DNA of 34,690 bases from IMG/VR virus record IMGVR_UViG_3300022413_000028, positions 1-34,690 of that record. One strand, given 5' to 3'. Below the pieces are notes generated by a model. The model made no database searches, was not told the DNA's origin, and saw nothing but the letters and a program-made list of their open reading frames with translations. This document shows positions 1-34,690 of the stretch, one piece after another. Position 1 is the stretch's first letter. Each line of letters begins with the position of its first letter. The stretch comes from a virus. Position numbers and translations under genes: made by a program.

Positions 1-292
1 GTTATTTGTGCACGTCTGCGGACAGAACCTTCTGGCCGGGTCGGCTCCAGGTTGCCGGTAGAGGGCCCTGTTAGAGCCTCTGCGGCGTGTCTGGCGGGCG
101 CCTTGGTCCTAGCCTTGCCGGGCTCTTGGGCCGCTTAGATCGGCTCTGCTATTCTCGCCCCGCCCGATTCTATTTACCCTAATTCGGCAATACCCATATA
201 GACTTAGTTCGGTGTTTCTCCACGGTCCATATAGGTCAAATACGGTAGAGCGTATATAGAGGGCTCAAGTTCTGGCTGGTTGATGCCGATGG
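1..292. other. non-coding leader with AT-rich patches
   Basis: No convincing gene lies here. The stretch from about 150 to 260 is richer in A+T than the rest of the window and holds three copies of an ATATAG core (196-201, 229-234, 254-259), spaced 33 and 25 bases apart; a further ATATAG lies at the other end of the window, in 34573-34600. These could be promoter -10 elements, operators or parts of an origin. The region precedes the plasmid-like operon, where a control region or origin would be expected, but nothing proves a function. Confidence 0.45.
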
Positions 293-511
293 ATGGTCAT
301 GGCTATCTACGACATCCACACGCCGGGGTTGGCTGAGGCGGTCGCCGTTTGGCGGGCCCAGTTCCTCACCGCCGACGATGATCCGCCGGCCGAGCTCGAA
401 CCGGTCGACTGGATTCACGCGGTGATGCTCGACGCTCTTACTGTCCGGCCCGACGGTTCCATTGGTACTGGCGGCTCTGGATCTTGGCGTGATCGTCAGG
501 GTTACCGGTGA
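293..511 (+). CDS. hypothetical small protein (72 aa)
   Basis: Small acidic protein of unknown function starting at ATG 293 or ATG 299. Codon use (many C or G third positions) and an orderly amphipathic N-terminal half (AEAVAVWRAQFL) suggest real coding; the Gly/Ser-rich tail after residue 55 is less protein-like. No Shine-Dalgarno sequence is obvious. It converges on the minus-strand gene 438-743 and overlaps it by 74 bases, so at least one of the two ends may be wrong. No family recognised. Confidence 0.45.
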   Translation: MVMAIYDIHTPGLAEAVAVWRAQFLTADDDPPAELEPVDWIHAVMLDALTVRPDGSIGTGGSGSWRDRQGYR

Positions 512-743
512 TGGCTACCGCCAGCTCTCGGTACGTCTTGCGGTACGGGCCTTTCGGGTCGTTGGCGCGGTTGATCCATTGCCGCTGCTCGTCGTCGAAG
601 GGAAACACTGACCGGTAGGCGATAGCGCCCATGAGGTCGACAGCGGGGTCGGGGCAACCGGCTCGGGCTTGTCGCCGGAGCTCGGCCCAGCGGGTTGCGT
701 CTTCGTCTGTTGCGTTCCGTTGGCGCGGTCCGGTCGGTGACAC
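438..743 (-). CDS. hypothetical small basic protein
   Basis: A 101-residue protein from a GTG start at 743. It is hydrophilic, rich in Arg, Gln and Asp, and the C-terminal part (YRELAVAITG, then a basic tail ending RQYQWNRRAGQ) could form a helix-turn-helix, which would suit a regulator transcribed away from the plasmid-like operon. Codons are C-ending as in neighbouring genes, which supports it over the other minus-strand frames. A TTGACA hexamer lies upstream on its strand (around 762-767), but its spacing to the GTG is too short for a normal promoter of this start. Function is not known. Confidence 0.5.
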   Translation of the reverse strand: MSPTGPRQRNATDEDATRWAELRRQARAGCPDPAVDLMGAIAYRSVFPFDDEQRQWINRANDPKGPYRKTYRELAVAITGNPDDHAKIQSRQYQWNRRAGQ

Positions 744-797
744 ATCGTGATAGTAGGCGAATTGTCAAGCCCGCCACGGATATCTGACACAAAGACC

Positions 798-834
798 TTA
801 ACAATCAACTAAGAACATGATACTGTCCGAGGGG
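798..834 (+). promoter_or_regulatory. putative promoter of the FtsK-Rep operon, leaderless start
   Basis: TTAACA at 798-803 and GATACT at 819-824 are separated by 15 bases and would start RNA close to 831-834, at the GTG that opens the next gene. Leaderless mRNA is frequent in actinobacteria. The spacing is shorter than ideal, so this is a prediction only. Confidence 0.4.
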
Positions 835-1394
835 TGACAGCCTTAGACCCCGCCGACGTGATCTTCCTCATCTGTTTCCTGCTCGGGCTCGGCGGTTTCG
901 GTATAGCCACCGGCGCCGTGTTCGACCGCGACCCCTCCCAAGTCCTGACAGCCTGGTGGCCCTGGGGACTCGGTGTCGCCCTGGTCGCCGTAACCGCCAT
1001 CGGGTCGAACACGGTCACCGTCAACCTCTTGTTGGCTGTCGTCCTGCTCCTACTCGCCGCCGCTATCACCGCCGGCATGTACTACCTGGCGGGCCTGCGA
1101 TTCACCGCCGACGTTGTGGACCTCCCCCAGCTGGAGAACATTCCCCGCGCTGCCATCGAGCAACCACCATCAGCCGTCGAAGAGGAACTAGAGGCCCGCG
1201 CTGCCGCCGCTGCTGCGCTCGACGAACTCGAGGCCGAACCCGAGATCCGCACCATCCACCGCCGGATCATCATCGACAACGTCTTAGACGTCGAACACCA
1301 CTACCGCGCCGGTGAGGTCGTCGACCATTGGCCCGAACCGGCCCACCGCGCCCCCGACCCGCTACCCGCCGCACGTAAAGCCCTCGAACGATGA
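834..1394 (+). CDS. membrane protein, first gene of the transfer/replication operon
   Basis: A 186-residue protein with three probable membrane helices: residues about 8-29, 38-57 and 62-86. A cytoplasmic tail follows, with an Ala/Glu-rich segment likely to be helical (about 110-138) and a hydrophilic end. The GTG start at 834 lies directly behind a promoter-like sequence. It overlaps the next gene by an ATGA junction and so is probably translated with it. Small membrane proteins commonly accompany FtsK/TraB-type ATPases in actinobacterial plasmids, where they help intramycelial spread (Spd proteins) or hold the ATPase at the membrane. A role of that kind is inferred from position only; no family signature is seen. 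Confidence 0.75.
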   Translation: MTALDPADVIFLICFLLGLGGFGIATGAVFDRDPSQVLTAWWPWGLGVALVAVTAIGSNTVTVNLLLAVVLLLLAAAITAGMYYLAGLRFTADVVDLPQLENIPRAAIEQPPSAVEEELEARAAAAAALDELEAEPEIRTIHRRIIIDNVLDVEHHYRAGEVVDHWPEPAHRAPDPLPAARKALER

Positions 1395-2011
1395 CCGCCA
1401 CCACCGAGAAACAGAAGCAGTGGTACCACCGGCTACCGCGACCCTCGACCGTTGTCCTCACCGTCAAGCTCGTGGTCGGTCTCGTTGTCACCTGGGCTGA
1501 ACTCGAGATCCTGGTGATCTTCTACATCTGGGGGTTCAGTTCGCAGCGTTGGCTGTTCCTCGCCGGCCTGGTCGTTTTCACCGTGACCGCCCGCGCTGAT
1601 CTGGCCGAAGAGTTCCGCGACGACGTGCGCACCACCTGTGACCGGTACCTGCATTTTGTTTGGCGTGTCCGATCCCCCGAGAAGTGGGGTTACAAACCCG
1701 ACGCCTGGCCATCCCTCACCGGCCGAATCGAGTTCGGCGAGTTCGTCGGCTGGCCGGCCGCCCTGGTCGCCATCATCCGGGCTCGGGGTCGAGCGATTCC
1801 GTTTAACCCTGTGACGTTCACGGTTCGCCGCCCCAACGACAAAGGCCACACCAGGAGCGGTAACGACGCCTGGCTCGCTGATTTTGCTGACTGGCTGAAA
1901 CGCCGGTACCGGTTCACCCTCGCCGCCCCCCGACCTCACCCCGAAGACTCGAACCGTGACCTGATCGAACTCCGGTCGCAGGTCATCCCTGACCTGATCG
2001 AGGCCGAATGA
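1391..2011 (+). CDS. membrane protein adjoining FtsK-like ATPase
   Basis: A 206-residue protein. A basic N-terminus (residues 1-20) is followed by two hydrophobic segments, about 21-40 and 41-66, and then a long soluble domain. That domain is rich in Arg, Trp and Phe with several short motifs (WGYKPDAWPS, GWPAALVAI) but no catalytic signature I recognise. ATGA overlaps on both sides tie it to the preceding membrane protein and to the ATPase. The topology fits a membrane anchor or adaptor for the DNA pump; that is inference from context. Confidence 0.75.
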   Translation: MTATTEKQKQWYHRLPRPSTVVLTVKLVVGLVVTWAELEILVIFYIWGFSSQRWLFLAGLVVFTVTARADLAEEFRDDVRTTCDRYLHFVWRVRSPEKWGYKPDAWPSLTGRIEFGEFVGWPAALVAIIRARGRAIPFNPVTFTVRRPNDKGHTRSGNDAWLADFADWLKRRYRFTLAAPRPHPEDSNRDLIELRSQVIPDLIEAE

Positions 2012-2904
2012 TTACAGAGAAATTCAATCTCGCCGCCAAGGTCGGATCGCTCGGCTCCGACAAGGCCCTGTTGGGCACTAACTGGCTCGGTAAGCCGTTC
2101 ATCCTCGACAAGTCATGGAGACCCCACGCCCTCATCTCCGGGGCCACAGGGACCGGTAAGGGCGTCCTGGTGCGCAACCTGCAATGCCACGACCTCGCCG
2201 TCGGTACACGGATTGCGGTCATCCAACCCAAACCAGGAGAAAACGGTTGGCTCGACGGTGCCGCCACCATCGCCACCACTCCAGAGCAGTGGTGCGAAAC
2301 GTTCGAGCGGTTCACCACCGAACAGAACCACCGGCAAGCCATCTGCGAGAACTACGTCGACCCCGCCACCGGCATTCGGGGTCTCGATAACATCAATGAA
2401 CTCCCACCCCAGGAACGACTGCCGGCGTGGCGGCTCTACGTAGACGAAGTCTCCGGGGTCCTAGGCAAGGCGACCCTGATCCGGGCTACCAACAAAGCAG
2501 CCCGTGACGACCTGATCCGCCAGATGGACTATATGGCCAGCTGTGTGACCGAGATCGTGCAGCGGGGCCGCTCCACCGGCATACACCTGGTGTTGATCAC
2601 CCAACGCCCGACCGTGGTCGCCAACTTCGCTGACGGGTCCGTCGGTGCTGCCATCTTCGCCAACATGGAACAACGAGCCCACGGCGACGCCAAAGGCGAC
2701 TCGCTCGACATGGCATTCGATCATTGCGGCCGACCCGATCCCGAAGTCGTCCGACTCGTCAAAGCAGCCGGCAAACCGGGACGTATGGCCTACTCGTTCG
2801 GTTGCGAAGCAGACGGCCCCGACGTCCAAGTCGGCCAGGTCGTCAAGATCAGCAAAGAACAAGCCCGAAGCTTCGCTATCAACGCCATGGAGCGCCAACC
2901 ATGA
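2008..2904 (+). CDS. FtsK/SpoIIIE/TraB-like DNA translocase ATPase
   Basis: A 298-residue P-loop ATPase. Walker A is GATGTGKG at residues 45-52 and Walker B is LYVDE at 143-147; a segment QRGRSTGIHLVLITQRP near 184-200 is the usual FtsK/HerA sensor region following the ATPase strand. It lacks its own membrane helices, which the two upstream proteins may supply. Proteins of this size next to a RepSA-like gene are typical of actinobacterial conjugative plasmids and AICEs (TraSA/TraB class), where one ATPase moves double-stranded DNA between cells. In a phage genome it might instead aid segregation or transfer of a plasmid prophage. Family assignment is secure; the biological role is inferred. 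It overlaps the Rep gene by ATGA. Confidence 0.9.
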   Translation: MITEKFNLAAKVGSLGSDKALLGTNWLGKPFILDKSWRPHALISGATGTGKGVLVRNLQCHDLAVGTRIAVIQPKPGENGWLDGAATIATTPEQWCETFERFTTEQNHRQAICENYVDPATGIRGLDNINELPPQERLPAWRLYVDEVSGVLGKATLIRATNKAARDDLIRQMDYMASCVTEIVQRGRSTGIHLVLITQRPTVVANFADGSVGAAIFANMEQRAHGDAKGDSLDMAFDHCGRPDPEVVRLVKAAGKPGRMAYSFGCEADGPDVQVGQVVKISKEQARSFAINAMERQP

Positions 2905-4124
2905 CCGCCACTGTCGCTCCCTTGGATGACCTTACGGGAACATCTTGGGAGATTTCGCAGCCGGTTCCAGCGGTTCCGCAGTTGTTCCCTGTGCGGGCTC
3001 TGAATCGTTGGGCGCTCGGCCGGTGCCCGTCCCATCCCAACGAGAGCTGTGCGTGTGAGCGTTCGGTGCCTGCTGTGTCGTCGTGTGGTGTCGCTGTTTC
3101 CGAGACGGGTTCGATCTTGATTTCGGAGGGTGAGCACGGGGCGTGGGGTTCGGAGCAGTTGGCGACGTGTAAGTCGCCGTGGTGCTGCGATTTCTGTGTC
3201 CGTGCGCATCGGGCGGATGCGTTGGAGCGGGCCGAGTTTGTGATCTCTGAGCATTTCGCAGCTGGTGGTTGTATCGCGTTGGCGACGTTCACGGTCGAGC
3301 ACGATCGCGGCACCCGCCTGGCGGGCCAGTTGTGGACGTTGAATGAGGCGTGGAAGGGAATCAAGGGGTTGAAGGCGTGGAAGGACCTTGGTGTGTCCGG
3401 GTATTCGCGGACGTTGCATGTGTCGTGTTCCCCGGTGAATGGTTGGCACGGTCACTATCACGTCCTGTTGTTCTTCGATGATGGTGTTACCCCGAAGCTC
3501 GACCTTGTCGAGGGGCTCCGCCCGAAGTGGAACGAGAAGCTACGCCAGCATGACGGGGATGGGGGTGACGCTTCGGTGAAGGCCCGTTACGTCGACAGCC
3601 TCGAGCAGGCGTTGTATCCGTGGCGTGAGACCGAGGAAACCGACCCGAGTGTGTGGGGGTCGGATGATTGGGCTGATGTTGACCCGTGGGAGAACACCAA
3701 CAAGTGGGACGGGGATGGTTTGTCGACGTGGGATCTGGCGTCGCTCGCTTCGGTTGGTCATCGGCGGGCGTTGGCGTTGTGGCATGAGTTCTATGACGCC
3801 ACTTCGGCGGATTCGGTGACGTCGTGGTCGCGGGGTCTGACTAAGGCATGGAATCAGGAGACCGAGCGCCGCAAAACCAAGTCGCCTGTAGCGCGCCCGA
3901 AGCCGGTGGCGTTGGTCGCTAACGATGTGTGGAACGCTGCTCACGCGCAGCGCGGGGGTGCTTTGGCTGAGGCCGGGTTGCGGGTAGGGGCGCGGGTGGG
4001 GTCTGTGGCTGGTGTGGCGGTCATGGTCGAGTTCTGGGCTCGTGGTTTGGGGCGGGCTATCTCGGTGGTCGAGTCCGATGGTTTACCGTTCGTGTTTTTT
4101 CCTACAGAAGAGAGAGTTACCTAA
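2901..4124 (+). CDS. rep: rolling-circle replication initiator (HUH Rep, RepSA/pC194-like)
   Basis: A 407-residue Rep starting at ATG 2901, overlapping the ATPase stop. A Cys-rich region (CKSPWCCDFC, about 90-105) precedes the HUH metal-binding motif HGHYH at residues 183-187, followed by VLLFF. A Glu-x3-Tyr pair (E235, Y239) matches the catalytic arrangement known for pC194/pUB110-type Rep proteins, in which the Tyr nicks the double-strand origin and the Glu helps end the round. The C-terminal 80 residues are less conserved in appearance. The gene favours G- and T-ending codons, unlike the C-ending codons of its upstream neighbours, suggesting a separate origin. Assignment to the rolling-circle class is firm on motifs; host range and whether it works in the phage cycle are not known. 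Confidence 0.88.
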   Translation: MTATVAPLDDLTGTSWEISQPVPAVPQLFPVRALNRWALGRCPSHPNESCACERSVPAVSSCGVAVSETGSILISEGEHGAWGSEQLATCKSPWCCDFCVRAHRADALERAEFVISEHFAAGGCIALATFTVEHDRGTRLAGQLWTLNEAWKGIKGLKAWKDLGVSGYSRTLHVSCSPVNGWHGHYHVLLFFDDGVTPKLDLVEGLRPKWNEKLRQHDGDGGDASVKARYVDSLEQALYPWRETEETDPSVWGSDDWADVDPWENTNKWDGDGLSTWDLASLASVGHRRALALWHEFYDATSADSVTSWSRGLTKAWNQETERRKTKSPVARPKPVALVANDVWNAAHAQRGGALAEAGLRVGARVGSVAGVAVMVEFWARGLGRAISVVESDGLPFVFFPTEERVT

Positions 4125-4333
4125 TGGCTGCTGATGACCGGACACACAAGATCAACTGTTCCAAGTTCTATGACGAACTGACGGAGCTCCTCGAGGTGAC
4201 GTCGATGGATATCCAGAAGATTGTTGAGATGTCGGTCGAGCGGGGTATCGGCCTGCTCCGGGCTGACCTGGCCCCCATTTTCGACGACCTGAAACCGCCG
4301 GCCCCGGTGCGGCTCAATGAACGAACCGGGTAA
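4124..4333 (+). CDS. small hypothetical protein after Rep
   Basis: A 69-residue acidic protein joined to Rep by a TAATG stop-start overlap. The middle part (YDELTELLEV ... IVEMSVERGIGLL) looks helical and could dimerise; there is no zinc motif or membrane segment. Its end overlaps the GIY-YIG gene by 17 bases. Similar small genes follow rep genes in actinobacterial elements and are often copy-control or accessory proteins, but no specific function can be claimed. Confidence 0.7.
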   Translation: MAADDRTHKINCSKFYDELTELLEVTSMDIQKIVEMSVERGIGLLRADLAPIFDDLKPPAPVRLNERTG

Positions 4334-4811
4334 CAGCGACCGCCGTTGGGTCATCTACCGGTTGTGGGGTTACCGCCGCCGGTGGGTGATCTTCGGCCGT
4401 CGTCGCCTCAAGTACGTGGGTATCTCTTCGGGGTTCAATTATCGGGCCGCTCAGCACGCGGCTACGAAACCGTGGTGGCGTGAGGTAGATCCCCGGTATG
4501 TGACAATCGAAGTCCTCGGCCCTGATGTGCGGACCCGTGAGCAGGCTGAGGACCTCGAGAATCGTTACATCGGCGCGGAGTGCCCTCAGTACAACCAAAT
4601 TGGGAACGGGGGCCGCTACGACGCTGCTAGCGCCCTCAGGGCGCAAGCCCGCGCCGGTGATGGTTGGTGGGTGCTCCGCGACGCCGTCGTCGTGTCATGG
4701 CTCGGGCTTGTTGTACGCCGAGAGGCCCGCGAGCTACGGGAGGCGGTCGCCCGCCTGCTGGTCTATAGCGCGGTGCTTGGCGTGTTCGTGGCCGCCGTCG
4801 TCTACGCCTAA
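4317..4811 (+). CDS. GIY-YIG nuclease-like protein with C-terminal membrane helix
   Basis: A 164-residue protein with the GIY-YIG layout: VIY at 12-14, YVGIS at 33-37, Arg43 in RAAQH, Glu81 in DLENRYI and Asn93 in QYNQ. These are the positions expected for the two tyrosines, the catalytic Arg, the metal-binding Glu and the Asn of the fold, so nuclease activity is plausible, although the first motif is VIY rather than GIY. Residues 147-164 form a hydrophobic C-terminal tail that could anchor the protein in the membrane, which is unusual for this fold. It is the last gene of the transfer/replication operon, so it may process DNA at the site of transfer; that is speculation. Confidence 0.75.
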   Translation: MNEPGNSDRRWVIYRLWGYRRRWVIFGRRRLKYVGISSGFNYRAAQHAATKPWWREVDPRYVTIEVLGPDVRTREQAEDLENRYIGAECPQYNQIGNGGRYDAASALRAQARAGDGWWVLRDAVVVSWLGLVVRREARELREAVARLLVYSAVLGVFVAAVVYA

Positions 4812-4816
4812 ACATT

Positions 4817-4846
4817 CTGGACAAATTGACCAAACGGCGCGATACT
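4817..4846 (+). promoter_or_regulatory. operator-promoter, copy 1 of a 20-base shared site
   Basis: The sequence CTGGACAAATTGACCAAACG at 4817-4836 recurs exactly at 23010-23029. It contains an imperfect 15-base dyad, TGGACAA-A-TTGACCA (4818-4832). TGGACA (4818-4823) serves as a good -35 with a 17-base spacer to GATACT (4841-4846), and RNA would start at about 4853, the ATG of the next gene. A repressor bound to the dyad would block this promoter. No other exact copy was noticed in the window. Confidence 0.65.
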
Positions 4847-4852
4847 AGAGGC

Positions 4853-5029
4853 ATGGGACACCCGCATTCCAACTACCGCAAAAGCCTTGAGACCGAAGCC
4901 AAGTTCAGGACCGCCGCCGCCAAAGCATCCGTTTGGAAAGCCAGAGACCAGCGCGACGCCAAGGTCGCAGAAATCGCCGACGACCTGAAGTTCAGTCTCT
5001 TTGAGGACGACGTCTCTCTTTGGAGCTGA
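4853..5029 (+). CDS. small charged hypothetical protein, likely leaderless
   Basis: A 58-residue protein, start chosen at ATG 4853 because the promoter at 4818-4846 places the RNA start on it; an upstream ATG at 4826 lies inside the -35 region. It is highly charged and helical in appearance (Ala/Lys/Glu-rich, residues 10-45) with an acidic end. No family recognised. Its promoter shares an operator with the gene at 23047, so the two are probably controlled by the same repressor. It faces the portal gene with a 12-base gap, leaving no room for a full terminator. Confidence 0.6.
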   Translation: MGHPHSNYRKSLETEAKFRTAAAKASVWKARDQRDAKVAEIADDLKFSLFEDDVSLWS

Positions 5030-5041
5030 TCCGATGAGCGT

Positions 5042-6427
5042 CTACTCGCCGTCTTCGTCTTCGCCTTGTTCGATCTCGAACCCGCCACCACCGTTGCCAT
5101 CGCCGTTGCTGTTGGTCCCATCGTCGGGCGGGGTCAACTGCACCGACGTGAGCCCGGAGTGTTTGCCCTGTAGCGCGACCAGGTTCCCCGATTGGACGAA
5201 GCTCACGGCGGCGTCGGGCTCGAACCCTGCTTCGACTAGGGTCCGGACCGTGGCTGCATCCTTCTGGCGTATGTCGGCTTCGTCGGCCTGGTCTTCCCGC
5301 AGGAACGCGATGTCGCGGTCGTCATACCACAAGCGGGAGACACCGGATAGCGGCGCGGGAACGATCTTGGATACGGCCGCCGCGAACGAACCCCATTGCG
5401 GTCGGGCGAAGTGATCACCGAACTTACGGCGGGCCTGCCCGTAATTGCTGTACGTAGCTGATGCGAGACCTTCGGAGAAACCGGCGATGATCGGCGGCAC
5501 CATCGCAGCCGCCGCGATCCTCGTTTCCGAGATGCCCTGTAGGCCTTTGTAATCCATATCCTTCATGGAGCTCCCAACCCGTTCGATCTTCGACCCCCCA
5601 CCAAGGAACAACGTCTTATAGGCGTTCAAGGCGCCCTCGTGCTGGTCGCGGAAATCGTCCTGGAACTCTTTGAACTCCTCGAAATCGACGGTGGCGTCGG
5701 GCATGACAACAAGGTTCACGGTGGCGCCCCGATCGAAGAAGTTGCCCTTGTGGACTACGGCGCTGTTGTCGGCCGACACGTCCCGAGTGATCGGTGTGAT
5801 CCATGACATGCCCCGGTAGTTGGCCACCGGATCAGGTATCGGCGACCAGTGCACAACCTCTTCCGGCAACAAGATCTCGTGGTTCCCCGACCCCGGTTCG
5901 CCCCACATGAACCCGATCACCTCAGCATCGATCGCGGCCGATGGGTCTTTGGCGTCGGTCTGGGAACCGAGGACAATGTGCATGTAGTCGGGCCGGAGTC
6001 GCCAGAGTCGGCCTCGGTGTTGGCGTAGATAGAAGTTGCCGGCCAGGCTCACGTCTTGCTCTGCCCGCCACAGCATCTCCCGAGTAGTGCCGTTCGGCCA
6101 CGGACTCTCAAGGATCGACAGATCAGGCGAGCCGAACAGTTTGCCGGGCCGGCCGCCTCGCAGTTCCTGCCACTGGAACCGTGCTTCGCTGAAGAGCATG
6201 GCGCGGGCGAGTATGCATGAGAACACTGGACCGGCTGAGCGGTAGGCGCCCTGGACCATGGCCTGAAAGCTGGTGTCGGGTGATTCGGTGTTGCTGTTGT
6301 TACCCATCGTCGTCTGCAAACCGAGCGGGTAGTTGTGGCCCAGGTAGTTGACCTGATTCATGAGCGCGTTGAGGTCGAACCGCTTGCCCTCTGGCTCGGT
6401 CGGTCGTAGGCGTTGAATCAATCCCAT
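5042..6427 (-). CDS. phage portal protein (HK97 family)
   Basis: A 461-residue portal; the ATG at 6427 is chosen because the frame upstream of it runs through the end of the preceding gene. The sequence has the expected order: N-terminal clip-proximal part, a central stretch with DISV-like hallmarks (EEVVHWSPIPDPVANYRGMSWI around 190-212), then GISETRIAAAAMVPPIIAGFSEGLASATYSN (in segments around 300-335), typical of HK97-type portals. The C-terminus is a Gly/Asn/Asp/Glu-rich disordered tail. The protein forms the dodecameric ring at one capsid vertex, where terminase docks and DNA passes. It is the last gene of the minus-strand packaging block and overlaps its upstream neighbour by 10 bases. 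Confidence 0.93.
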   Translation of the reverse strand: MGLIQRLRPTEPEGKRFDLNALMNQVNYLGHNYPLGLQTTMGNNSNTESPDTSFQAMVQGAYRSAGPVFSCILARAMLFSEARFQWQELRGGRPGKLFGSPDLSILESPWPNGTTREMLWRAEQDVSLAGNFYLRQHRGRLWRLRPDYMHIVLGSQTDAKDPSAAIDAEVIGFMWGEPGSGNHEILLPEEVVHWSPIPDPVANYRGMSWITPITRDVSADNSAVVHKGNFFDRGATVNLVVMPDATVDFEEFKEFQDDFRDQHEGALNAYKTLFLGGGSKIERVGSSMKDMDYKGLQGISETRIAAAAMVPPIIAGFSEGLASATYSNYGQARRKFGDHFARPQWGSFAAAVSKIVPAPLSGVSRLWYDDRDIAFLREDQADEADIRQKDAATVRTLVEAGFEPDAAVSFVQSGNLVALQGKHSGLTSVQLTPPDDGTNSNGDGNGGGGFEIEQGEDEDGE

Positions 6428-6621
6428 TGCGGTACCACCAGGGCTAGAGCGATCAGGGCAACCGAGCCGATGAGCAGGGCCCAAGGCCAGCTAGTGAGCA
6501 CGGTAATGGCCACCAGGACGCCACCTGCGCCGAACACAGCGGCCAGGACGTCGACGTAGGCGCGGGCGAGCTCGGCCACCGTTCGGCTTTCGGTTTTGCT
6601 GGCTTCGATTGCTTTGCTCAC
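6418..6621 (-). CDS. small two-helix membrane protein in the packaging block
   Basis: A 67-residue protein. The GTG at 6621 is preferred because AGGAG lies five bases before it on the minus strand, inside the end of the methyltransferase gene. Residues about 27-46 and 48-63 are hydrophobic and can form two membrane helices; the N-terminus is charged. Two-helix proteins of this size can be holins, but a holin-like gene also lies at 22683 and neither is beside the endolysin. The position between methyltransferase and portal is unusual for a lysis gene, so the function stays open. Confidence 0.65.
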   Translation of the reverse strand: MSKAIEASKTESRTVAELARAYVDVLAAVFGAGGVLVAITVLTSWPWALLIGSVALIALALVVPQWD

Positions 6622-6629
6622 CAGTGCTC

Positions 6630-7811
6630 CTAAATCATTGTCAGTTGTTCGCCGTGGGGTGTGACTGGTGATGGGCCGGCGTCGGGTTTCAACGCCCGCC
6701 AACACTCTTGGTAGCGGGCCTCGTACAAGTCGGGATTGTGGGGGTCGAGGTCGATCCCGGTCGCGTTACGTCCGTGGATGTCGGCTACTGCGAGTGTTGT
6801 TCCGGTTCCGGCGAACGGGTCGAGGACGTGCCCGGGCCGGTAATCATCGTGGCCGCAGTCGGACCAACCGAGCGTTGGGGCCGAGCGGATAACAGAGGCG
6901 TTGGCTTGACCGTTGTGGGTGTACTGGTTCGCCTTCTCCGCAACCCTGGCGCCATCGTTCATCGCCGACGAAGACCCGCCGCGATAGCTGGCAGATGGCA
7001 CGTATTCGGGTGGTCCGGTGATGCGTCGGCGTGGTTCCCCGCACACTGTGCACACTTCGGCAGGGCACATCGACAGGATCAGACGCTCAGCCAACGTTGG
7101 GGGCCACATGGCGTAGTGGGCTAGGGAGCTGCCGTGGGTGTTGATGTGCCATGTGAGGTTTTCGGTGTCGTTGCAGTGGTCGAGCGGCGGCGCCCCAGCC
7201 GACTGGCTGGCGTCATACGCTGGTAGCGGAATGCGGTCACCCCCGTACTTACCATCAACGCGATTCATTTTGGCTGGTAGTCGCTGCCCTGGGTGTTGCA
7301 CGGGGGTGCGTACGGCGTCGAGGTCGAACCACCGCTTCCCCGACTTCGTGGCCACCGTGATGTACGACGTTGCGGGCCGGTACTTGTCGCCCAGCGCCCC
7401 AACCGGCGGGTTCGCCCGCGCCCACACGATCACGTTCCGTATCCGCCACGGTTCAATCGTTCGTTCGGGGTTGAGTAGGTTGCGGCCGTAGGCGAGCGAC
7501 CAGGCGAACAGGGTCGGCACACCGGTCAACGACTTCGTTGGTGGTTCGACGTAATCGCCGACGTTGAACTTGTCGCCGAGCTCGAACGCGATCGACCCAT
7601 GCCCCGCCAACTTCGGGGCCAACGCCTCCACCAAGTCGAGCAGGTTGTCGAGGAACGCTGCCGGGGTCGCCTCCGAACCCCACTGCCCCACTAGATCGTT
7701 GTAGTTGCGGAGCGCGAGGAACGGCGGCGATGTGGCCACCAAATCCACCGAGTCATCCGGTAGGGCGCGGACTTGCTCCAAGGCATCGCCGGTGAGCCAC
7801 TCAACTGTCAT
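6630..7811 (-). CDS. DNA methyltransferase, N4-cytosine type (beta class)
   Basis: A 393-residue SAM-dependent DNA methyltransferase. The catalytic motif TSPPF is at residues 27-31 and the SAM-binding motif DPFAGTGTT at 331-339, so the catalytic motif comes first (beta-type order). TSPPF is the form seen in N4-cytosine enzymes such as M.PvuII, although N6-adenine activity cannot be excluded. A Cys cluster (C249, C254, C257, C319) may hold zinc. No restriction endonuclease partner is visible, so it is probably a solitary enzyme protecting phage DNA or altering host or phage regulation. It overlaps the large terminase gene by four bases, meaning it is expressed with DNA packaging genes. Confidence 0.88.
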   Translation of the reverse strand: MTVEWLTGDALEQVRALPDDSVDLVATSPPFLALRNYNDLVGQWGSEATPAAFLDNLLDLVEALAPKLAGHGSIAFELGDKFNVGDYVEPPTKSLTGVPTLFAWSLAYGRNLLNPERTIEPWRIRNVIVWARANPPVGALGDKYRPATSYITVATKSGKRWFDLDAVRTPVQHPGQRLPAKMNRVDGKYGGDRIPLPAYDASQSAGAPPLDHCNDTENLTWHINTHGSSLAHYAMWPPTLAERLILSMCPAEVCTVCGEPRRRITGPPEYVPSASYRGGSSSAMNDGARVAEKANQYTHNGQANASVIRSAPTLGWSDCGHDDYRPGHVLDPFAGTGTTLAVADIHGRNATGIDLDPHNPDLYEARYQECWRALKPDAGPSPVTPHGEQLTMI

Positions 7812-14733: not shown

Positions 14734-16079
14734 TGGCCAGCAAGTCAAAGGTCACACTCACATTCGCCGGCGATAGCGATCAGCTCGAAAAGACGTTCGA
14801 TCGTGTCGGCAACGCGGCCGACGAAATGAGCGATGATGTGTCTCGGGCATCGCGTGAGATGGGCCGCAGCTCGGCTGAATCGTTCGACACGGTAGGCAAC
14901 GCCGCCGGCGATCTCGACACACGGGCCATGGGCTTCCGCGACACCATCACCGGCGTACAGGACACCATGGGCGGCTGGAACCAGCTCATGGAAGGCGACA
15001 TTGCCGGCGGCATGTTCACCCTCGGTGCCGGCATCGGCGACCTGGCGTCCGGTGTTGAGAACCTCGTCGTACCCATCGTAAAGGCCGGCATCGAGCACGC
15101 CCGCACCGCTGGCATGTGGGTCGCCAACAACGCTCGCATGGTCGCCTCCAACATCGCCTCGGCGGCCCGCTCGGCCGCGGTGTGGATCGCGTCCGCTGCT
15201 CGGGCCACCGCAGCCGTTGTCGCCTCTGTAGCCCGCCAGGTGGCCGCTTGGGTTGTCCTAGGTCTCCAATCACTGTTACACGCCGCCAAGGTCGCGTTGG
15301 CGTGGCTGATCGCCATGGGCCCCATCGCGATAGTGATCGCCGCCGTCATCGGGCTCGTTGTCCTCATCATCAAGAATTGGGACACCATCAAACGGGTCAT
15401 CGCCGCCGGATGGAACTTCGTCAAACGGATCACCTCGGCGGTGTGGAACGCCATCAAGGCCGCCGTCGTGCGGATCGTGTCCGGGCTCATCAACCGCATC
15501 CGCCGCCAGATAGCCACCGTCAAGGCCATCATCCGAATCGGGTGGGCCGTAATCAAAGCCGTGACTACCGCAGCGTGGAACGCGGTCAAGAAGAAAGTGA
15601 CTGACATTTGGACGAAACTCAAATCGATTGTCCGCACCGGGAAAACGTCGATCGTTAACACCCTCAACACACTGAAGAGCGCGGTCACGAGAATCATGGG
15701 CGCGGTGGGGCGCGCTATCACCGCCCCGGTACGTACCGCGTTCCGGGCCGTCAAACGAATCTGGAACTCGACGGTCGGCGGTAAAGGGTTCAACATCCCC
15801 GGGTTCCTCGGGTTCGGTGGCATCAGCTTCCGGATACCCCGCCTGGCCGAAGGTGGGATCGTGCGCCGACCCACGTTCGCTCTCGTCGGCGAAGCCGGGC
15901 CCGAAGCTGTCGTACCCCTCGACCGGTCACTCAACGGAGTCGGCGGCCCAACGCAGGTCACCTTCGACTTCCGGACCGACGGCTCCGCGTTGGCTGACCT
16001 CCTGGTCGAAGTGCTCCGTAAGGGGATCGCCAACCGAGGCGGCACCGTCGAAGCGGTCCTAGGGCGCGGTGCCCCCTGA
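14733..16079 (+). CDS. tape measure protein (short)
   Basis: A 448-residue protein from ATG 14733. The N-terminal 100 residues are charged and helical (DQLEKTFDRVGNAADEMSDD), then come Ala-rich and hydrophobic helices (about 190-215 IAMGPIAIVIAAVIGLVVLII) and repeated W-N motifs (AAGWNFVK, SAVWNAIK, TAAWNAVK), all usual in tape measures. The end, GGIVRRPTFALVGEAGPEAVVPLDR, is a standard tape-measure C-terminus. Known scaling of about 0.15 nm per residue would give a tail near 65-70 nm, short for a siphovirus. Confidence 0.9.
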   Translation: MASKSKVTLTFAGDSDQLEKTFDRVGNAADEMSDDVSRASREMGRSSAESFDTVGNAAGDLDTRAMGFRDTITGVQDTMGGWNQLMEGDIAGGMFTLGAGIGDLASGVENLVVPIVKAGIEHARTAGMWVANNARMVASNIASAARSAAVWIASAARATAAVVASVARQVAAWVVLGLQSLLHAAKVALAWLIAMGPIAIVIAAVIGLVVLIIKNWDTIKRVIAAGWNFVKRITSAVWNAIKAAVVRIVSGLINRIRRQIATVKAIIRIGWAVIKAVTTAAWNAVKKKVTDIWTKLKSIVRTGKTSIVNTLNTLKSAVTRIMGAVGRAITAPVRTAFRAVKRIWNSTVGGKGFNIPGFLGFGGISFRIPRLAEGGIVRRPTFALVGEAGPEAVVPLDRSLNGVGGPTQVTFDFRTDGSALADLLVEVLRKGIANRGGTVEAVLGRGAP

Positions 16080-19000
16080 TGGCCTGGCCCATCGACCCCA
16101 TCAACCTCGAGGTCGGATTGTTCATCGACGGGGCATGGGTGGACGCCGTAGTCACCGGTGACGGTGTCCGCCTGGCCAACCCTGTCGCCATCAACCACGG
16201 CCGCTCCGACTGGGCCTCCCAGGTCGACCCCGGGCGGGCCACGTTCACCCTCGACAACCGAGACGGCCGATGGAGCCCAGACAATCCCTCGAGCCCCTAC
16301 ACCGGCACCTACCGCCGTAACATTCCGTGCCGGGTCGGGATAGGGCGCGGTACCGTCCACCTGGCGTCAACCGGGGTTTCCAACGACCTGGTCTCCACTC
16401 CCGACATTGCCGGCACCGGCGGCGGTTCCCCCACCGCGCCCGCCCACGTCGACGTCACCGAGTCAGCCGAAACCGTTCACACAACCTCCCACGGTGTGGA
16501 CATGCCAGCCACCGTGACCGCCGGTGACCGGCTCACCCTGGCCGTGACGTTCGGCCACGAGAACTACACCGCACCCACAGAACTGGACGACTGGGCGTTG
16601 GCCGTAGCGTCCAACCTCTACACCCCATGGAACGGGTGGGCTATCTACATCTCTGATGTGTTGAGCACTGCCGAAGCGGCCGCGCTGGCTGGAGCGACAG
16701 TCACTTTCGCTACCACCAACAACACGCGCTCATCCTCCCAGGTGATCCGAACCAGTGGCTGTCGTGCCGGCGGCGAAGGTACCGCGTGGGATATCGAATT
16801 CACCACCAAAACATCGAGCGACTCGCCCAATCCGCCGTCGTTGACCACGTCGTGGGGCGCGGACGAGCACCGCTGGTATGCGCTGGCGATCTACGGGTCA
16901 GCCGGTGAAACCGTGTCGGCCTACCCGACGTCGTACACGTCGGTTGCTGACGGGAACGTGGCCTCCCTCGTTCAGATCGGGTCGGCTCATCACACCACGT
17001 CGGCCGCCACCGAAGACCCCACCGCGTTCACCCTCACCGCTACCGAGAATTGGCAGGGTGTAACCCTCGCGTTCCGGGCCATCGAGGACACCGGCGGCGA
17101 CGGTGTGCTCGACATAGCCGGCGACATCGACCTGCGGGTCGAGTTCGAACTAGCCCAAGACCCGCCCGCCCTCGCCGCCGACGGGTCGGGTATCCGTTAC
17201 CACCTGGCCCGCAAACGGGACTACGCCGCCGACAACGGTTTCAACTTGGATTTGTACATAGCCAACTCGGGTGAGCTGGTAGCCGCCTTGGTTTGGGTTG
17301 ACACCAGCTCAGTATGGAAGAGCGTCACCACCGAACAAACCGGGGCCGCGCTGCCGCTCTCGTTCCTCCACGACCACGCCGCTATCCGGGTTGACCTCGA
17401 CGTCGACAACGGGGCCTCCGGTCACGACGTCGACTTCTACACCTCCGACGCCATCGATGGGACCTGGACCCAACTCGGTTCAACGGTCACCGTGGCCGGT
17501 ACCACCGACATAAAAACCAACGACGCCCCCCTCACGTTGGGTGGCACCTCCGACAATCCGACGTCGTACCCTGTCAGTAGAATCTTTGCGTTCGAGATGC
17601 GCGACGGTGGCGGCACTGGGACCGTGGTCGCTAACCCCGACTTCACCGCCCAAGGCCAAACCGAATACCGATACCAGGCTGACGGCCTGTTCCGCCTCCT
17701 CCAAGATTTGGGCGCCACCGCCTGGTATGACGCCCGAGACATCGACACCGACAACTTTGTCACCACCGCCGACCACTACCAGCGCGACCCCCTGTTTGGT
17801 CTCCTCAAAGAACTAGGGGCAACCGCCTGGTACGACGCCGGCGACATAAGCTCTAACACGTTCGTCGACGACGCCGGCCGGACCTGGACCATCGGGCCCG
17901 GCGGCCGGCTCAGTGACATGTTGTGGCGGTTCCACGGTGAACTAGCTAGCTTGCCGGTCCGGTGGAACGTCGACGGGTCAGACGTGACCAGCCCGGTAGA
18001 GGCCAATGGCCTTTTTCGTCGCCTGCGTCAAGGGAGACGCCGCCTCGATTCGGCTATCCGTCGGGCCATCATCCGCGACGCGGTGAGCGTGGTCGCCTAC
18101 TGGCCGTTGGAAGAAACCGGGGCCACCGTGTCGAGCTTCGGGGCCGCCGTCGGAACCAAACCGATGACGGTGGCCGACGGGTACCCCAACACCGCCGCCA
18201 ACAACACGTTCTTGGCGTCGGCTCCGTTACCGACCTTGGGCGACGCACAAATCACTGGGTTTACCGACCCACACACCGCAACCGGGGCGTGGCAAGTCCG
18301 ATGGTTACAAGAGGTCCCCACCGATTTCGTCGCCGGCACCGAAATCACATTCTTTGGTGTGTTCACCTCCGACATAGATTGGTTCCTGAATTTCCGGGAC
18401 GACGCTGGCGGTCAGCTCCGGGTCCTCGGCGCCCGCGGTGCCACCACCGTCTACACCGGTACCTGGACGTCGTTTAACGCCACCGGCGCGGCGTTCCGTA
18501 TGACCCTGTCGGTAACCCAGAACGGGTCAGACGTCGACGTCCTACTACTCGGCCAAGAACAAGACGAACCCATGGGCGGCGGGGTCGATGTGACCGCCGC
18601 TGTTGCTGGTTCGGCTGGCACCGTGACCGCTATCAATATCAACGGTGGTTTCAACGTTGGCGACTGGGCGTTCGGGCATGTCACCGTCCAAACCGCCGAA
18701 ACGTTGAGCAGTGAACTAGCGACCGAGCTCGACGCCCACGACGGGGAACGGGCCGGTCTCCGAATCCAACGCCTACTGACCGAAGAAGGGATCGCCTACC
18801 GGATCGAGGGCGACCCCGCCGACACCGAACAGATGGGACCACAACGACCGGCCACGTTGATGGACCTACTAGAGGAGTGCGCCAAAACCGATTTAGGGAT
18901 CCTGCACGAAGCTAGAGACTCGGTCGCTGTCGGGTACCGCACGAGGGCGTCGATGATCGACCAGGCTGTCGTCATCGATCTCGACTACGCCGCTGGGGAG

Positions 19001-22000
19001 GTGGCCGAACCGCCCGCCCTCGACCGCGACGACCACGACTTCGCCAACGACGTCGAAGTCAAAAACAAGGACGGGGCCACCGCCCGCGCTGTACTCGACG
19101 ACGGCACAGCCCTGTCCGTGTCCGAACCACCGACCGGGGCCGGCCGCTACGACTCAAGCTTCGACGTCAACTCCCAAGTGGCCCGCCTGCAAGCCCTGGC
19201 CGACACCCGCCTAGCTCTGTCGACTGTTGACGAGCCGAGAGTTTCCCGGTTGTCGCTCGCCCTACACCACCCCGCCCTCGTTGATGACGCTGCACTCACG
19301 ACCGCCATCCTCGATGCGTCGTTGGGTGACAGAGTCGAAGTGTCGAACAACCTCACCGAAGCGCTCGGGACATCTACCATCGACCAAATCATCCAAGGAA
19401 CCAGAGAACAAATAGGGAACTTCACACACACCCTCGGCGCGCTCACCACCCCCTACGCTCCGTGGGTGACCGGCGGCGGAGTCGAAGCCCCACCCGAACC
19501 CCATTCCGTGTCGTTCCGATCCCAGCTCGAGCTAGCCACGTTCGGGACGCCACCCCACGTCCTCACCGCCCTCGGTTACACCAGCACCACCAAAATCGCC
19601 CGCTCCGACCTCGACGGCATCCTCGACGACTGGGTAGCCTCCACCGGCGGCACAACCCGCAACGTCACCAGCACAGCCACGTGGACCACCGCCTGTGCCG
19701 CAGCGTTACCCGGCGACCTCATACGGGTCACCACCGGGTTCGATCCCGGTGGCGCCCTCGAACTGCGAGGCACCCGCTACAGCATCAGCCACGTCGGCTC
19801 CAACGGGCGGCTGACAGCGTCACCAGCGGGCGGGACCGCTGACCTACCCATCATTGTCACCTGCGCCGACGGTGAAGTCGTCGACGACAACAACACCTCC
19901 AGCAACGTTGGCGTCCTCGACATTATGAACTGTGAGCACGTGTGGGCGGTCGGGTTCAACGTCGAAGGCGGCCAGCACGGGATCCGCTGTTACAACTGGG
20001 GTGGTTCGGTCACCAACCCCGCCTACGTCGCCTACAACACCGTCCAATCGGTCGGGCACTCCGGGATCCACGTGCTCGGTTGGTCACAGCTGATCACCTC
20101 GTCTGGCGGTACCCCACCGTCGGGGGCCGGGAACACGTGGGGTCTCAGCCAATACGGTGTCGTCGAAGAGAACACCATCGACGGGACCGGGCTCATCGCT
20201 GACGCTTCCGGCCAGTCGATCAACCTGGGGATCGGGGCGGCTCCCGGTTGGGTGTCCTACTGCAAAGACCTCTGGGTGCGGGGCAACACCGTGTCAGACA
20301 TGACAGCCGAAGCTTTCGCCGCTCAACCTGGTTGCAGCAATATCTACTGGACCGATAACGAGGCATCGATCGGGTATGCCGTCTCGGTCCCTGTCGGTCT
20401 CTGCTATGTGGCCGCCGCTTACGATGTCCGCCCGGCGTTCTTCGACGCCGACCCTAACATCTGGTTCGAGGGGAACCGGGTCTACAACATGAATGTGACC
20501 TCAGCGTCGGGTAGCGCGGTCGACATCATGGGCTATATCGGCCTTAGCGGCATGCGGATCGCCAATAACATCTTCTGGACGTGGCCCCAGACCGGCACTC
20601 ACGCCGCCTGGCGGGCCCGCAACGAGCACGGCACCAACGACACCGAAGCCCTAACGTACTTCCGTAACGACCCCACGTGGGTCATCAACAACACCCTGTG
20701 GGGTGATGACAGCTTCGAGAACGCTGGCTACGGGGCATCACCGACCGTGTTCCCCGGGACCATCGACTTCGACCTGCGCAACAACATCGTTGACCAAGCA
20801 TCACCAGCTACCGGTGAGGTAGACGCCGCCGCCGCCGACTTCATCGACACCGTCCCCGCTGTTGGGGTGGCCGGCACCGCCGAATGGGAAACCTACGGGC
20901 TCGGTTCAGCGTTCGACCTGGCCCTAACCTCCACCCTGATCGTGTCCGGCGCCGACATCAGCGACGTGTCGTTCCTCATCTCCGACGACATCTCGCAACG
21001 AATGATCGACAAGGCCGCCCCCAACCCTGGAGCGTTCCAACCCCACCCCGCCAACGAAACCGAAACCGGGACACCAGCAAACCCGCCCACCCCCCCAATG
21101 CCACAGTTCTACGGCCCCGATTACCGGCCGACCCCACCCACCCCGCTCGACACGGTGGCGACCACTACCGCCACGTTCGCCGCCAACATTGCCGCCGCCG
21201 CACCGGGCGACAGACTCGAACTAGCGACCGGCAGCTACGGCGAGTGGGACATAACCGGTACTGGTTTGAACGGCACCGCCGCCAACCCGATCATCATCAC
21301 CCCAGCAGCGGGCGCGACCGTCACCTTCACCGAGATCGACATCCGGGAAAACTGCTCTCATGTCTGGTTCGGTAACTTCCAAGGCGAAGCCGAACACACC
21401 GGTTTCGTCATCGACCGGGCCGGGGGGGGCGGGGCCTGCCTCCGGGTCGGGTGGGATCAGCAACGTAGCGGAACCCACGACCACGAGAGCATCAACGATC
21501 TCAAATTCTGCGGCATGCACATAACCAACGTCGGTTTGAACAATGTTGTCATCAAAGGCGGGGCCGACAACATCGACATCGTCAACTGTCGGCTGACCCT
21601 CGGCGGTGTGACCGACCCCGACCGCGGCGAAATGATTTACATCGGCCAGGCCAACCCCGCCAGCTACCCGTCAGCCTCGGAGAACATCCTCATCCAGGGC
21701 AACATTTTTGAGGATGTCACCGCCGACGCTGTCGACATCAAATCCTCGGACAATCAGGGCATCGACGTACTCGACAACTACTTCGAGGTGGCCGCCCTCG
21801 ACGGGACCCTGTCCGGGTTCACAAACGGGATTGTGGCCGCCGTCGAAATCCTCACGCAACAAACCAGAGACCCCAAAATTCGGGTCATGCGGAACACGTT
21901 CCGAGACATCACCGAAACCGGGACCAACGCCAGGGCTCGAGCTATCACAACGTGGATGCCGATGGAGATCGGTTACAACATCATTTTCCGTACCGATCGG

Positions 22001-22372
22001 GAATCGATGCGGCTCAAGCAGACACTCTCCACGCTGCCCGCCTGGTGGACGGTCGACGTCAAGTTCGACGTTCACCACAACACCTGCTTTGACCACAACC
22101 AAGCTGCCGGCGGTTACGACAACATTCACTTCGAAGCGTTCGACACGGTCGACGCGGCCCGCCTCCGGTTCGTGTCGAACGTCACCGAGGGCGCTGTCAC
22201 CCTGCCCAGCGGTACCGGGGAGAACTCCGACAATCACTCGGCGGCGATCTCGGATTTCGTGGGGCCGACCACGGGAAGCGCGGACGCGGGCGACCACGTA
22301 GGGTCCGGTTACAAGCTGGCGTCGGGTTCGTCGATCCCGGGAACCGCTGGCGCGCTCGGGAAGGTCGAATGA
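16079..22372 (+). CDS. giant fused tail-tip and receptor-binding protein (2097 aa)
   Basis: One gene where most siphophages have several. Residues 1-100 look like a distal-tail platform; about 110-330 is a beta domain; 340-530 is a LamG/concanavalin-like fold. A short tandem repeat follows (LGATAWYDA-D near 545 and 580). A second LamG-like part runs to about 880, and about 880-1140 resembles the baseplate hub domain (LLTEEGIAYRIEGDP, DRVEVSNNL). Two right-handed beta-helix domains end the protein: about 1190-1650 and 1690-2090, each opening with an A-PGD-I/L-L motif (AALPGDLIRV, AAAPGDRLEL). The second resembles chondroitinase-B-like folds, so polysaccharide cleavage is possible, though I see no proven catalytic set. 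The role in host binding is well supported; the enzyme function is open. Confidence 0.85.
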   Translation: MAWPIDPINLEVGLFIDGAWVDAVVTGDGVRLANPVAINHGRSDWASQVDPGRATFTLDNRDGRWSPDNPSSPYTGTYRRNIPCRVGIGRGTVHLASTGVSNDLVSTPDIAGTGGGSPTAPAHVDVTESAETVHTTSHGVDMPATVTAGDRLTLAVTFGHENYTAPTELDDWALAVASNLYTPWNGWAIYISDVLSTAEAAALAGATVTFATTNNTRSSSQVIRTSGCRAGGEGTAWDIEFTTKTSSDSPNPPSLTTSWGADEHRWYALAIYGSAGETVSAYPTSYTSVADGNVASLVQIGSAHHTTSAATEDPTAFTLTATENWQGVTLAFRAIEDTGGDGVLDIAGDIDLRVEFELAQDPPALAADGSGIRYHLARKRDYAADNGFNLDLYIANSGELVAALVWVDTSSVWKSVTTEQTGAALPLSFLHDHAAIRVDLDVDNGASGHDVDFYTSDAIDGTWTQLGSTVTVAGTTDIKTNDAPLTLGGTSDNPTSYPVSRIFAFEMRDGGGTGTVVANPDFTAQGQTEYRYQADGLFRLLQDLGATAWYDARDIDTDNFVTTADHYQRDPLFGLLKELGATAWYDAGDISSNTFVDDAGRTWTIGPGGRLSDMLWRFHGELASLPVRWNVDGSDVTSPVEANGLFRRLRQGRRRLDSAIRRAIIRDAVSVVAYWPLEETGATVSSFGAAVGTKPMTVADGYPNTAANNTFLASAPLPTLGDAQITGFTDPHTATGAWQVRWLQEVPTDFVAGTEITFFGVFTSDIDWFLNFRDDAGGQLRVLGARGATTVYTGTWTSFNATGAAFRMTLSVTQNGSDVDVLLLGQEQDEPMGGGVDVTAAVAGSAGTVTAININGGFNVGDWAFGHVTVQTAETLSSELATELDAHDGERAGLRIQRLLTEEGIAYRIEGDPADTEQMGPQRPATLMDLLEECAKTDLGILHEARDSVAVGYRTRASMIDQAVVIDLDYAAGEVAEPPALDRDDHDFANDVEVKNKDGATARAVLDDGTALSVSEPPTGAGRYDSSFDVNSQVARLQALADTRLALSTVDEPRVSRLSLALHHPALVDDAALTTAILDASLGDRVEVSNNLTEALGTSTIDQIIQGTREQIGNFTHTLGALTTPYAPWVTGGGVEAPPEPHSVSFRSQLELATFGTPPHVLTALGYTSTTKIARSDLDGILDDWVASTGGTTRNVTSTATWTTACAAALPGDLIRVTTGFDPGGALELRGTRYSISHVGSNGRLTASPAGGTADLPIIVTCADGEVVDDNNTSSNVGVLDIMNCEHVWAVGFNVEGGQHGIRCYNWGGSVTNPAYVAYNTVQSVGHSGIHVLGWSQLITSSGGTPPSGAGNTWGLSQYGVVEENTIDGTGLIADASGQSINLGIGAAPGWVSYCKDLWVRGNTVSDMTAEAFAAQPGCSNIYWTDNEASIGYAVSVPVGLCYVAAAYDVRPAFFDADPNIWFEGNRVYNMNVTSASGSAVDIMGYIGLSGMRIANNIFWTWPQTGTHAAWRARNEHGTNDTEALTYFRNDPTWVINNTLWGDDSFENAGYGASPTVFPGTIDFDLRNNIVDQASPATGEVDAAAADFIDTVPAVGVAGTAEWETYGLGSAFDLALTSTLIVSGADISDVSFLISDDISQRMIDKAAPNPGAFQPHPANETETGTPANPPTPPMPQFYGPDYRPTPPTPLDTVATTTATFAANIAAAAPGDRLELATGSYGEWDITGTGLNGTAANPIIITPAAGATVTFTEIDIRENCSHVWFGNFQGEAEHTGFVIDRAGGGGACLRVGWDQQRSGTHDHESINDLKFCGMHITNVGLNNVVIKGGADNIDIVNCRLTLGGVTDPDRGEMIYIGQANPASYPSASENILIQGNIFEDVTADAVDIKSSDNQGIDVLDNYFEVAALDGTLSGFTNGIVAAVEILTQQTRDPKIRVMRNTFRDITETGTNARARAITTWMPMEIGYNIIFRTDRESMRLKQTLSTLPAWWTVDVKFDVHHNTCFDHNQAAGGYDNIHFEAFDTVDAARLRFVSNVTEGAVTLPSGTGENSDNHSAAISDFVGPTTGSADAGDHVGSGYKLASGSSIPGTAGALGKVE

Positions 22373-34186: not shown

Positions 34187-34215
34187 GACGAGCCCGACGA
34201 GTCAAGGTTGTAGCC

Positions 34216-34572
34216 ATGCGCCGGCCGTGCATCATGCCAGGCTGCAACAAGCTGTCACTCGACGGGGCCGCCCGCTGCCCAGCTCACCTCAGACAACAAG
34301 GGGCAACAAAGAACAGGGCCCGACAATCAAGGGCCCACCCATCACACGGGGCCGCCGCACTAACAAGGCGGGCCCTCAACCACATGGGCTACGGGCGGTG
34401 CGCCAAATGCCGGCGGCACTGCATAGCCCCCGCCCTCGAGGTCGACCACATCATCCCACTAGCAGACGGCGGCACCGACCGGGCCAGCAACACCCAGGCC
34501 CTATGCCTCCCATGCCACCGCGCCAAGTCAACCGCTGAACACCGAGCCCGAGCCCGCCGCCACTATCAATGA
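34216..34572 (+). CDS. HNH endonuclease
   Basis: A 118-residue protein. The core EVDHIIPLADGGTDRASNTQ gives Asp77-His78 and Asn92; CLPCHRAKS gives Cys97, Cys100 and His101; C62 and C65 complete the zinc site. A second Cys/His cluster (C5, C10, C21, H24) is at the N-terminus. Phage HNH proteins of this size usually sit beside terminase and help cos cleavage; here terminase lies about 10 kb away if the ends are joined. AAGG precedes ATG 34216 by about eight bases. Confidence 0.92.
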   Translation: MRRPCIMPGCNKLSLDGAARCPAHLRQQGATKNRARQSRAHPSHGAAALTRRALNHMGYGRCAKCRRHCIAPALEVDHIIPLADGGTDRASNTQALCLPCHRAKSTAEHRARARRHYQ

Positions 34573-34690
34573 TCCATTTGATCATATAGAACACTCAATA
34601 AACTCAGTGAATAAACACAAATAGATTTGATAAATCACAGGGGGAGGGGGGCGGGTCACCAACGCGACACACACCCCCCCCGCTATGCAC
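34573..34690. other. AT-rich end region with G and C runs
   Basis: No gene. Bases 34573-34642 are unusually AT-rich and contain ATATAG, a direct repeat AATAAAC (twice, 13 bases apart) and GATTT-GAT-AAATC. Next come G-rich (34641-34656) and C-rich (34673-34681) runs. If the molecule is circular this joins 1-292 to form one AT-rich intergenic control region; it could also hold a packaging end or origin. Confidence 0.4.

Follow-up and report, generated by a model that had tools for sequence, protein, structure and literature searches.

How did an operon of the kind found on small plasmids come to lie within the genome of a tailed phage, and what might it do there? We addressed this question for the operon at positions 834-4811 of IMG/VR virus record IMGVR_UViG_3300022413_000028, a sequence of 34,690 bases that is classed as linear and was analyzed over its full length (hereafter, the window). 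The operon encodes two predicted membrane proteins, an FtsK/TcpA-type motor and a Rep_1-type rolling-circle initiator, and it is absent from the same place in the best relative of the phage in IMG/VR, IMGVR_UViG_3300022209_000009 (31,942 bases; hereafter, G001), which was identified through its large terminase subunit (TerL). Our preferred explanation, which we hold with moderate confidence, is that a variable slot in the phage genome (246-5041) took up a plasmid replication and mobilization module (membrane proteins, FtsK/TcpA-like motor and rolling-circle Rep) that would give the phage a second replication mode.

The original prediction, made from the DNA sequence by itself, described a series of overlapping genes, and six open reading frames (ORFs), all intact and each overlapping its neighbor, do occupy this region:

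834-1394, plus strand: membrane protein A, 186 amino acids (aa); three hydrophobic segments close to the N terminus; start codon GTG.
1391-2011, plus strand: membrane protein B, 206 aa; hydrophobic region at the N terminus, then a soluble domain; four-base overlap with ftsK.
2008-2904, plus strand: FtsK/TcpA-type motor, 298 aa; Pfam FtsK_SpoIIIE.
2901-4124, plus strand: Rep_1-type rolling-circle initiator, 407 aa; Pfam Rep_1.
4124-4333, plus strand: small ORF, 69 aa, linking rep to the GIY-YIG gene; no Pfam or PHROG family.
4317-4811, plus strand: GIY-YIG-like nuclease, 164 aa; PHROG endonuclease profiles at 1.5e-7.

Four-base overlaps join ORFs of the operon, and the ftsK/rep junction is an ATGA at 2901-2904. 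The two predicted membrane proteins were confirmed by a Kyte-Doolittle scan, which detected hydrophobic segments that are strong in protein A and borderline in protein B; the former has no Pfam or NCBIfam family match, and a search for sequence homologues of the latter found none. For the GIY-YIG nuclease the PHROG profiles agree with the prediction and nothing else does, as the Pfam search gave no match and tblastn against plasmids and phages was empty; the protein ends in a C-terminal hydrophobic helix (residues 144-162, Kyte-Doolittle). Promoters, tRNAs and Rfam families were not detected above chance.

The motor matches Pfam FtsK_SpoIIIE at 1.2e-10 (41.7 bits against a curated cut-off of 24). 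Both Walker motifs named in the prediction are present, Walker A as GATGTGKG (residues 45-52, with K51 kept) and Walker B as RLYVDE (with its DE pair), although Walker A ends in GKG rather than GKS/T; TQRP is present as well. The structural model (mean predicted local distance difference test score, pLDDT, of 64, with a poor C terminus) gave as its best PDB fold match the conjugation coupling protein TcpA (6o1w, E 3.7e-12, TM-score 0.61), followed by an FtsK motor (E 8.9e-12). By its domain and the RecA-like fold of this model, therefore, the protein is of FtsK/TcpA type, the end of Walker A excepted. A hydropathy scan revealed no transmembrane segment, and the model contains no confident C-terminal winged helix or other recognizable DNA-recognition domain. 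Identity to the motors of actinobacterial plasmids is 23-26%. Assignment of the motor to a defense system was rejected, since it drew only single-component matches of FtsK/HerA type (SspH, 3.7e-12; mad8, 2e-10); no partner gene for such a system is present in the operon.

The rep gene starts at 2901, through the ATGA overlap with ftsK, and not at 2724. Its product matches Pfam Rep_1 (PF01446) at 5e-9 (36.4 bits against a curated cut-off of 33.2), and its residues were judged on alignments of 7 and of 37 sequences. Motif 1 (T129, T131 and H134), the W182-H183-x-H185-x-H187 of HUH motif 2 (GWHGHYH, 181-187) and tyrosine Y230 (KARYVDS) are invariant in the larger alignment, and these core residues, together with a cysteine cluster (C90/C96/C99), are kept across all 37 sequences. 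The protein had been proposed to be an HUH Rep with an E-x3-Y pair; the HUH core and the Rep_1 assignment stand, but the pair does not. E-x3-Y is not a motif of this family, the candidate pair (EQALY, residues 235-239) lies inside an insertion where 36 of the 37 sequences have a gap at column 239, the tyrosine is instead Y230, and no conserved glutamate is found four residues ahead of it. Judged by its sequence, Rep is a member of the Rep_1 family of rolling-circle initiators with one motif residue missing. Its relatives are on small plasmids, and no tailed phage with this Rep was found in the INPHARED set; single-protein searches of IMG/VR produced no close relative of the motor and none of Rep.

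Outside the operon, the window encodes the head, tail, packaging, lysis and RecE/RecT functions of a tailed phage. Profile matches identified portal, TerL, a weak small terminase subunit, protease, HK97 major capsid protein, adaptor and neck; tail terminator, tail tube, chaperone, tape measure and a 2097-aa tail protein; and a DNA methyltransferase, RecE, RecT, a replication initiator and an amidase endolysin, bearing out the claim that the operon shares one contig with head, tail and packaging genes. The TerL search of IMG/VR returned relatives at 79, 74 and 74%. G001, the first of these, agrees with the window in the order of its virion, packaging, RecE/RecT and replication genes (TerL at 79%, major capsid protein at 84%) and differs in lacking the operon and having other genes in the slot; it encodes no relative of the motor and none of Rep. 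Among the window and 33 TerL-related records, Rep_1 was found in one of 34, the window itself. Because neither the colinear G001 nor the other TerL relatives have Rep_1, the operon is, on this comparison, lineage-specific cargo and 246-5041 a cargo slot. Many of the 33 records are fragments and G001 is possibly incomplete, which leaves a single near-complete relative as the main basis of the argument. A TerL profile search of genome contigs gave no match and thus yielded neither a host nor a prophage.

The slot and its surroundings contain the following features:

1-245, no strand assigned: left end, conserved in G001 and continuous there with the right end of the window; cos-like junction.
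246-833, no strand assigned: left portion of the variable region, containing small ORFs at 293-511 (plus strand) and 438-743 (minus strand); DNA similarity to G001 ends at 245.
4826-5029, plus strand: small ORF, 67 aa, the last in the variable region before the portal gene; no family.
5042-6484, minus strand: portal protein, right neighbor of the cargo slot; PHROG 1.6e-35; 77% identical in G001.
34213-34690, no strand assigned: right end with an HNH gene (34216-34572), adjoining the left end in G001; conserved in G001.

Positions 34213-34679 and 1-245 of the window match adjacent stretches of G001 that are about 20 bases apart, indicating that the two ends of the window meet. The sequence was probably opened at a cos-like site, cos being what we infer from this arrangement. 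Between that site and the portal gene, the place of window 246-5041 is taken in G001 by unrelated genes spanning about 1.6 kb. The flanks, 1-245 and 5159 onward, are phage DNA conserved in G001, and no exact repeat of more than 13 bases is common to the two slot borders. The tetranucleotide distance of the operon to the rest of the window (0.137) is at the low end of the values for other 4-kb segments (0.12-0.22), and its codon-position GC agrees with that of the phage.

Several further differences and repeats were observed in the two phages. Boxes of CCATATAG/CTATATGG lie near the cos-like junction in both (window 194-234; G001, L011:12191-12255). The methyltransferase gene is between TerL and portal in the window (6630-7811) and beside the replication initiator in G001 (L010:1602-2942), and a stretch of about 400 bases behind the portal gene of G001 (L003:13080-13470) consists of a degenerate GCC/TGCC-rich repeat. 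The motif GATAWYDA is present in two copies in the 2097-aa tail protein (16079-22372) and in one copy in a 471-aa protein near the right end (32714-34129).

Small actinobacterial rolling-circle plasmids, including Rhodococcus pRE8424, Pseudonocardia pPA43082 and Bifidobacterium pASV479, resemble the operon in encoding a short FtsK-like motor and a Rep_1 initiator in one direction. In pRE8424 the order is a 203-aa protein with two transmembrane segments, a 296-aa FtsK, two further ORFs and Rep; membrane protein B of the window matches the 203-aa protein in place and size, and pASV479, like pRE8424, has a two-transmembrane protein directly upstream of its motor. Pseudonocardia genomes and elements also have, as in the window, an FtsK gene directly upstream of Rep. 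The window Rep is 25-29% identical to the Reps of the three plasmids, with the core residues in common. The plasmids differ in that they stand alone, lack virion genes and have no protein like that encoded at 4317-4811, and their Reps have a YxxK lysine that the window Rep does not.

Gene sets of this kind also occur in integrated elements. One in a metagenome-assembled genome (MAG) of Acidimicrobiales (L193:701-8491) encodes a DUF2637 membrane protein, an FtsK-like protein, a membrane protein, Rep and a tyrosine integrase; a search for the motor in 395 genomes of the class to which this MAG belongs recovered only large frames resembling chromosomal FtsK. In the same MAG (loci L193, L227, L229, L230 and L231) there are several Rep_1-like genes, and three more (contigs C35, C49 and C57) have a tyrosine integrase 2-3 kb downstream. 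These elements, which lie outside the Actinomycetales, resemble actinomycete integrative and conjugative elements (AICEs), a group restricted to that order in a 2011 survey. A viral record, IMGVR_UViG_3300028597_001046 (L179:1-13549), contains two diverged tandem units of Rep_1 and an HK97 major capsid gene, along with a small terminase gene and a TraB-like FtsK that has a winged helix at its C terminus; it is an AICE-like element with capsid genes and perhaps a satellite.

AICEs of the pSAM2 type (PMC3218068) and Streptomyces TraB plasmids (pSVH1, pIJ101) share with the window an FtsK-domain transfer protein, membrane proteins and a rolling-circle replication (RCR) Rep, whereas the window has no integrase and no clt repeats were found in it. 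TraB of Streptomyces transports double-stranded plasmid DNA by itself and recognizes 8-bp repeats at clt (PMC4170104); TraB has membrane and winged-helix parts, and the window motor is without both. We rejected an AICE because, with Rep and Tra present, the required integrase is missing (neither a tyrosine nor a serine recombinase was found in the record), and membership of the Streptomyces TraB system because the motor lacks a transmembrane segment and a confident C-terminal domain and no clustered 8-mers above chance were found in 1-5100. The claim that the operon is the gene set of actinobacterial plasmids and AICEs thus holds for small rolling-circle plasmids and integrated elements (pRE8424, pPA43082, pASV479 and Pseudonocardia) and fails for AICEs, given the lack of an integrase.

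Many integrative and mobilizable elements (IMEs) have a mobilization module in which an FtsK-like tcpA immediately precedes a relaxase gene of RCR type, some PF01446 initiators perform both replication and mobilization, and small plasmids with tcpA beside a PF01446 initiator have been proposed to be mobilizable (PMC5357655). The window has the gene order of the TcpA-RCR-relaxase modules of IMEs and of Tn916/ICEBs1-type integrative and conjugative elements (PMC5357655), with the FtsK-like coupling gene directly upstream of the initiator/relaxase gene and joined to it by the ATGA at 2901-2904. The published cases differ in being from Firmicutes and having an integrase or a type IV secretion system helper, and the relaxases of streptococcal IMEs are of other families than the window Rep; type IV secretion genes were not seen in the window.

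Known phage-plasmids, including extrachromosomal mycobacterial prophages (PMC11652158, PMC7157519), are, like the window, tailed phages that lack an integrase and encode an initiator of plasmid type. The extrachromosomal prophages known from actinobacteria rely on parABS together with RepA or RNA origins (PMC7157519); they have no RCR Rep with a motor, and the window has no ParA. By gene content only, the window is a phage-plasmid in that phage genes and a plasmid initiator are present in one genome. A Pfam search of the whole record was negative for tyrosine integrases, serine recombinases and ParA-type ATPases, as it was for G001. The prediction that the window has no integrase was therefore correct, but taking this absence as a sign of a plasmid prophage is not supported, because G001 has neither operon nor integrase; an integrase in a related genome without the operon, which was to have counted against the prediction, is likewise not found in G001. 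Lack of an integrase is, from this gene content, a trait of the phage lineage.

These comparisons suggest how a captured module might work. Rep would nick an origin through Y230 and thereby set off rolling-circle replication of the circular phage genome. This second replication mode, of plasmid type, would come in addition to the initiator and RecE/RecT that the phage already has. The motor, held by the two membrane proteins, would tie DNA to the membrane for segregation or transfer, and transfer, the least certain step, might proceed either alone, in the manner of TraB, or through the pore of another element, in the manner of TcpA. The activities of Rep and the motor, the origin, the plasmid state and transfer are all proposed from sequence. 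Several observations weigh against capture of a working module. The last position of the motor's Walker A is G, where nine aligned relatives (plasmid motors) have S/T, and the motor scores alike against plasmid-type (21.6 bits) and chromosomal (23.8 bits) FtsK profiles. In Rep, S233 replaces the motif-3 YxxK lysine (K in 32, T in three and D in one of the 37 sequences), motif 3 carries a private insertion, and the structural model, in which the region around Y230 is poor, gave no significant PDB match. These departures in Rep motif 3 and Walker A could mean divergence or lost activity. No replication origin was located, no cluster of clt-like 8-mers resembling TraB recognition sequences rose above chance in 1-5100, no partition gene or recognized plasmid-state regulator was found, and the junction is known from one copy only.

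The original prediction left open a phage-plasmid or a transfer element that had captured a virion. The direction supported is that of a phage that gained a plasmid module, and not the reverse, because G001 has the virion, recombination and replication genes and not the operon. The main rival, which we regard as possible although unlikely, is a hitchhiker: a small rolling-circle plasmid or integrated element that recombined into a virulent phage beside cos and is carried selfishly in virions, with no gain to the phage. The operon is a compact 4-kb unit with a full small-plasmid gene set adjoining the packaging end, the slot varies between relatives, the phage retains its own replication initiator and RecE/RecT, and the slight motif departures of Rep and motor are also as expected of a passenger. 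Yet the ORFs and their overlaps are intact, the borders share no exact repeats longer than 13 bases, and the composition matches that of the phage, so that the operon did not arrive very recently from a host of different composition. Improbable, in our judgment, is a true conjugative phage-plasmid, a circular prophage kept by Rep that the motor and the membrane proteins move from cell to cell without virions. Transfer in Streptomyces does need only one FtsK homologue, TraB (PMC4170104), and two membrane proteins, a motor and Rep are present; however, the missing TraB-type membrane and winged-helix parts, clt-like repeats and ParA-type partition gene make conjugation by the motor alone less likely, and the integrase is equally absent from G001, which has no operon.

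Two other explanations have little in their favor. Chimeric assembly, in which a plasmid contig was fused to a phage contig, had been raised with the prediction itself. The evidence is a single contig, and a search for a second genome with the same junction found none; composition and conserved flanks nevertheless give no sign of chimerism. Since the phage DNA on either side is conserved in G001, a chimera would require two false joins, and the operon equals the phage in composition and codon-position GC; we consider a chimera very improbable. We give still less credence to an embedded filamentous-phage (inovirus) unit. IMG/VR relatives of Rep are mostly in viral contigs of 5-8 kb and Rep matches inovirus blackswan219-6 (26%), but the plasmid gene order of pRE8424 fits better, and the candidate was rejected because there is no Zot match, no transmembrane segment in the motor and no small coat-protein-like ORF in the operon. 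Separately, a 57.6-kb viral contig (L107:9635-14390) has tailed-phage genes followed by Rep and a motor-like gene that resemble an inovirus, possibly two adjacent prophages.

Phage-plasmids are thought to arise by the exchange of modules between phages and plasmids. According to a 2024 review, their formation through acquired plasmid genes has not yet been observed (PMC11652158). The value of our finding lies in a pair of colinear genomes, one with and one without a whole motor-Rep module at one slot, a difference that makes the question of phage-plasmid formation testable. That the window represents a tailed-phage lineage caught after it gained a module with which it can replicate as a rolling-circle plasmid and move between cells without virions is a rather doubtful proposition at present. 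If true, one virion backbone that occurs both with the module and lacking it would be an example from nature of a phage-plasmid that formed when a phage acquired plasmid genes. A working module would bring together in one phage packaging, rolling-circle replication and perhaps transfer driven by a coupling protein.

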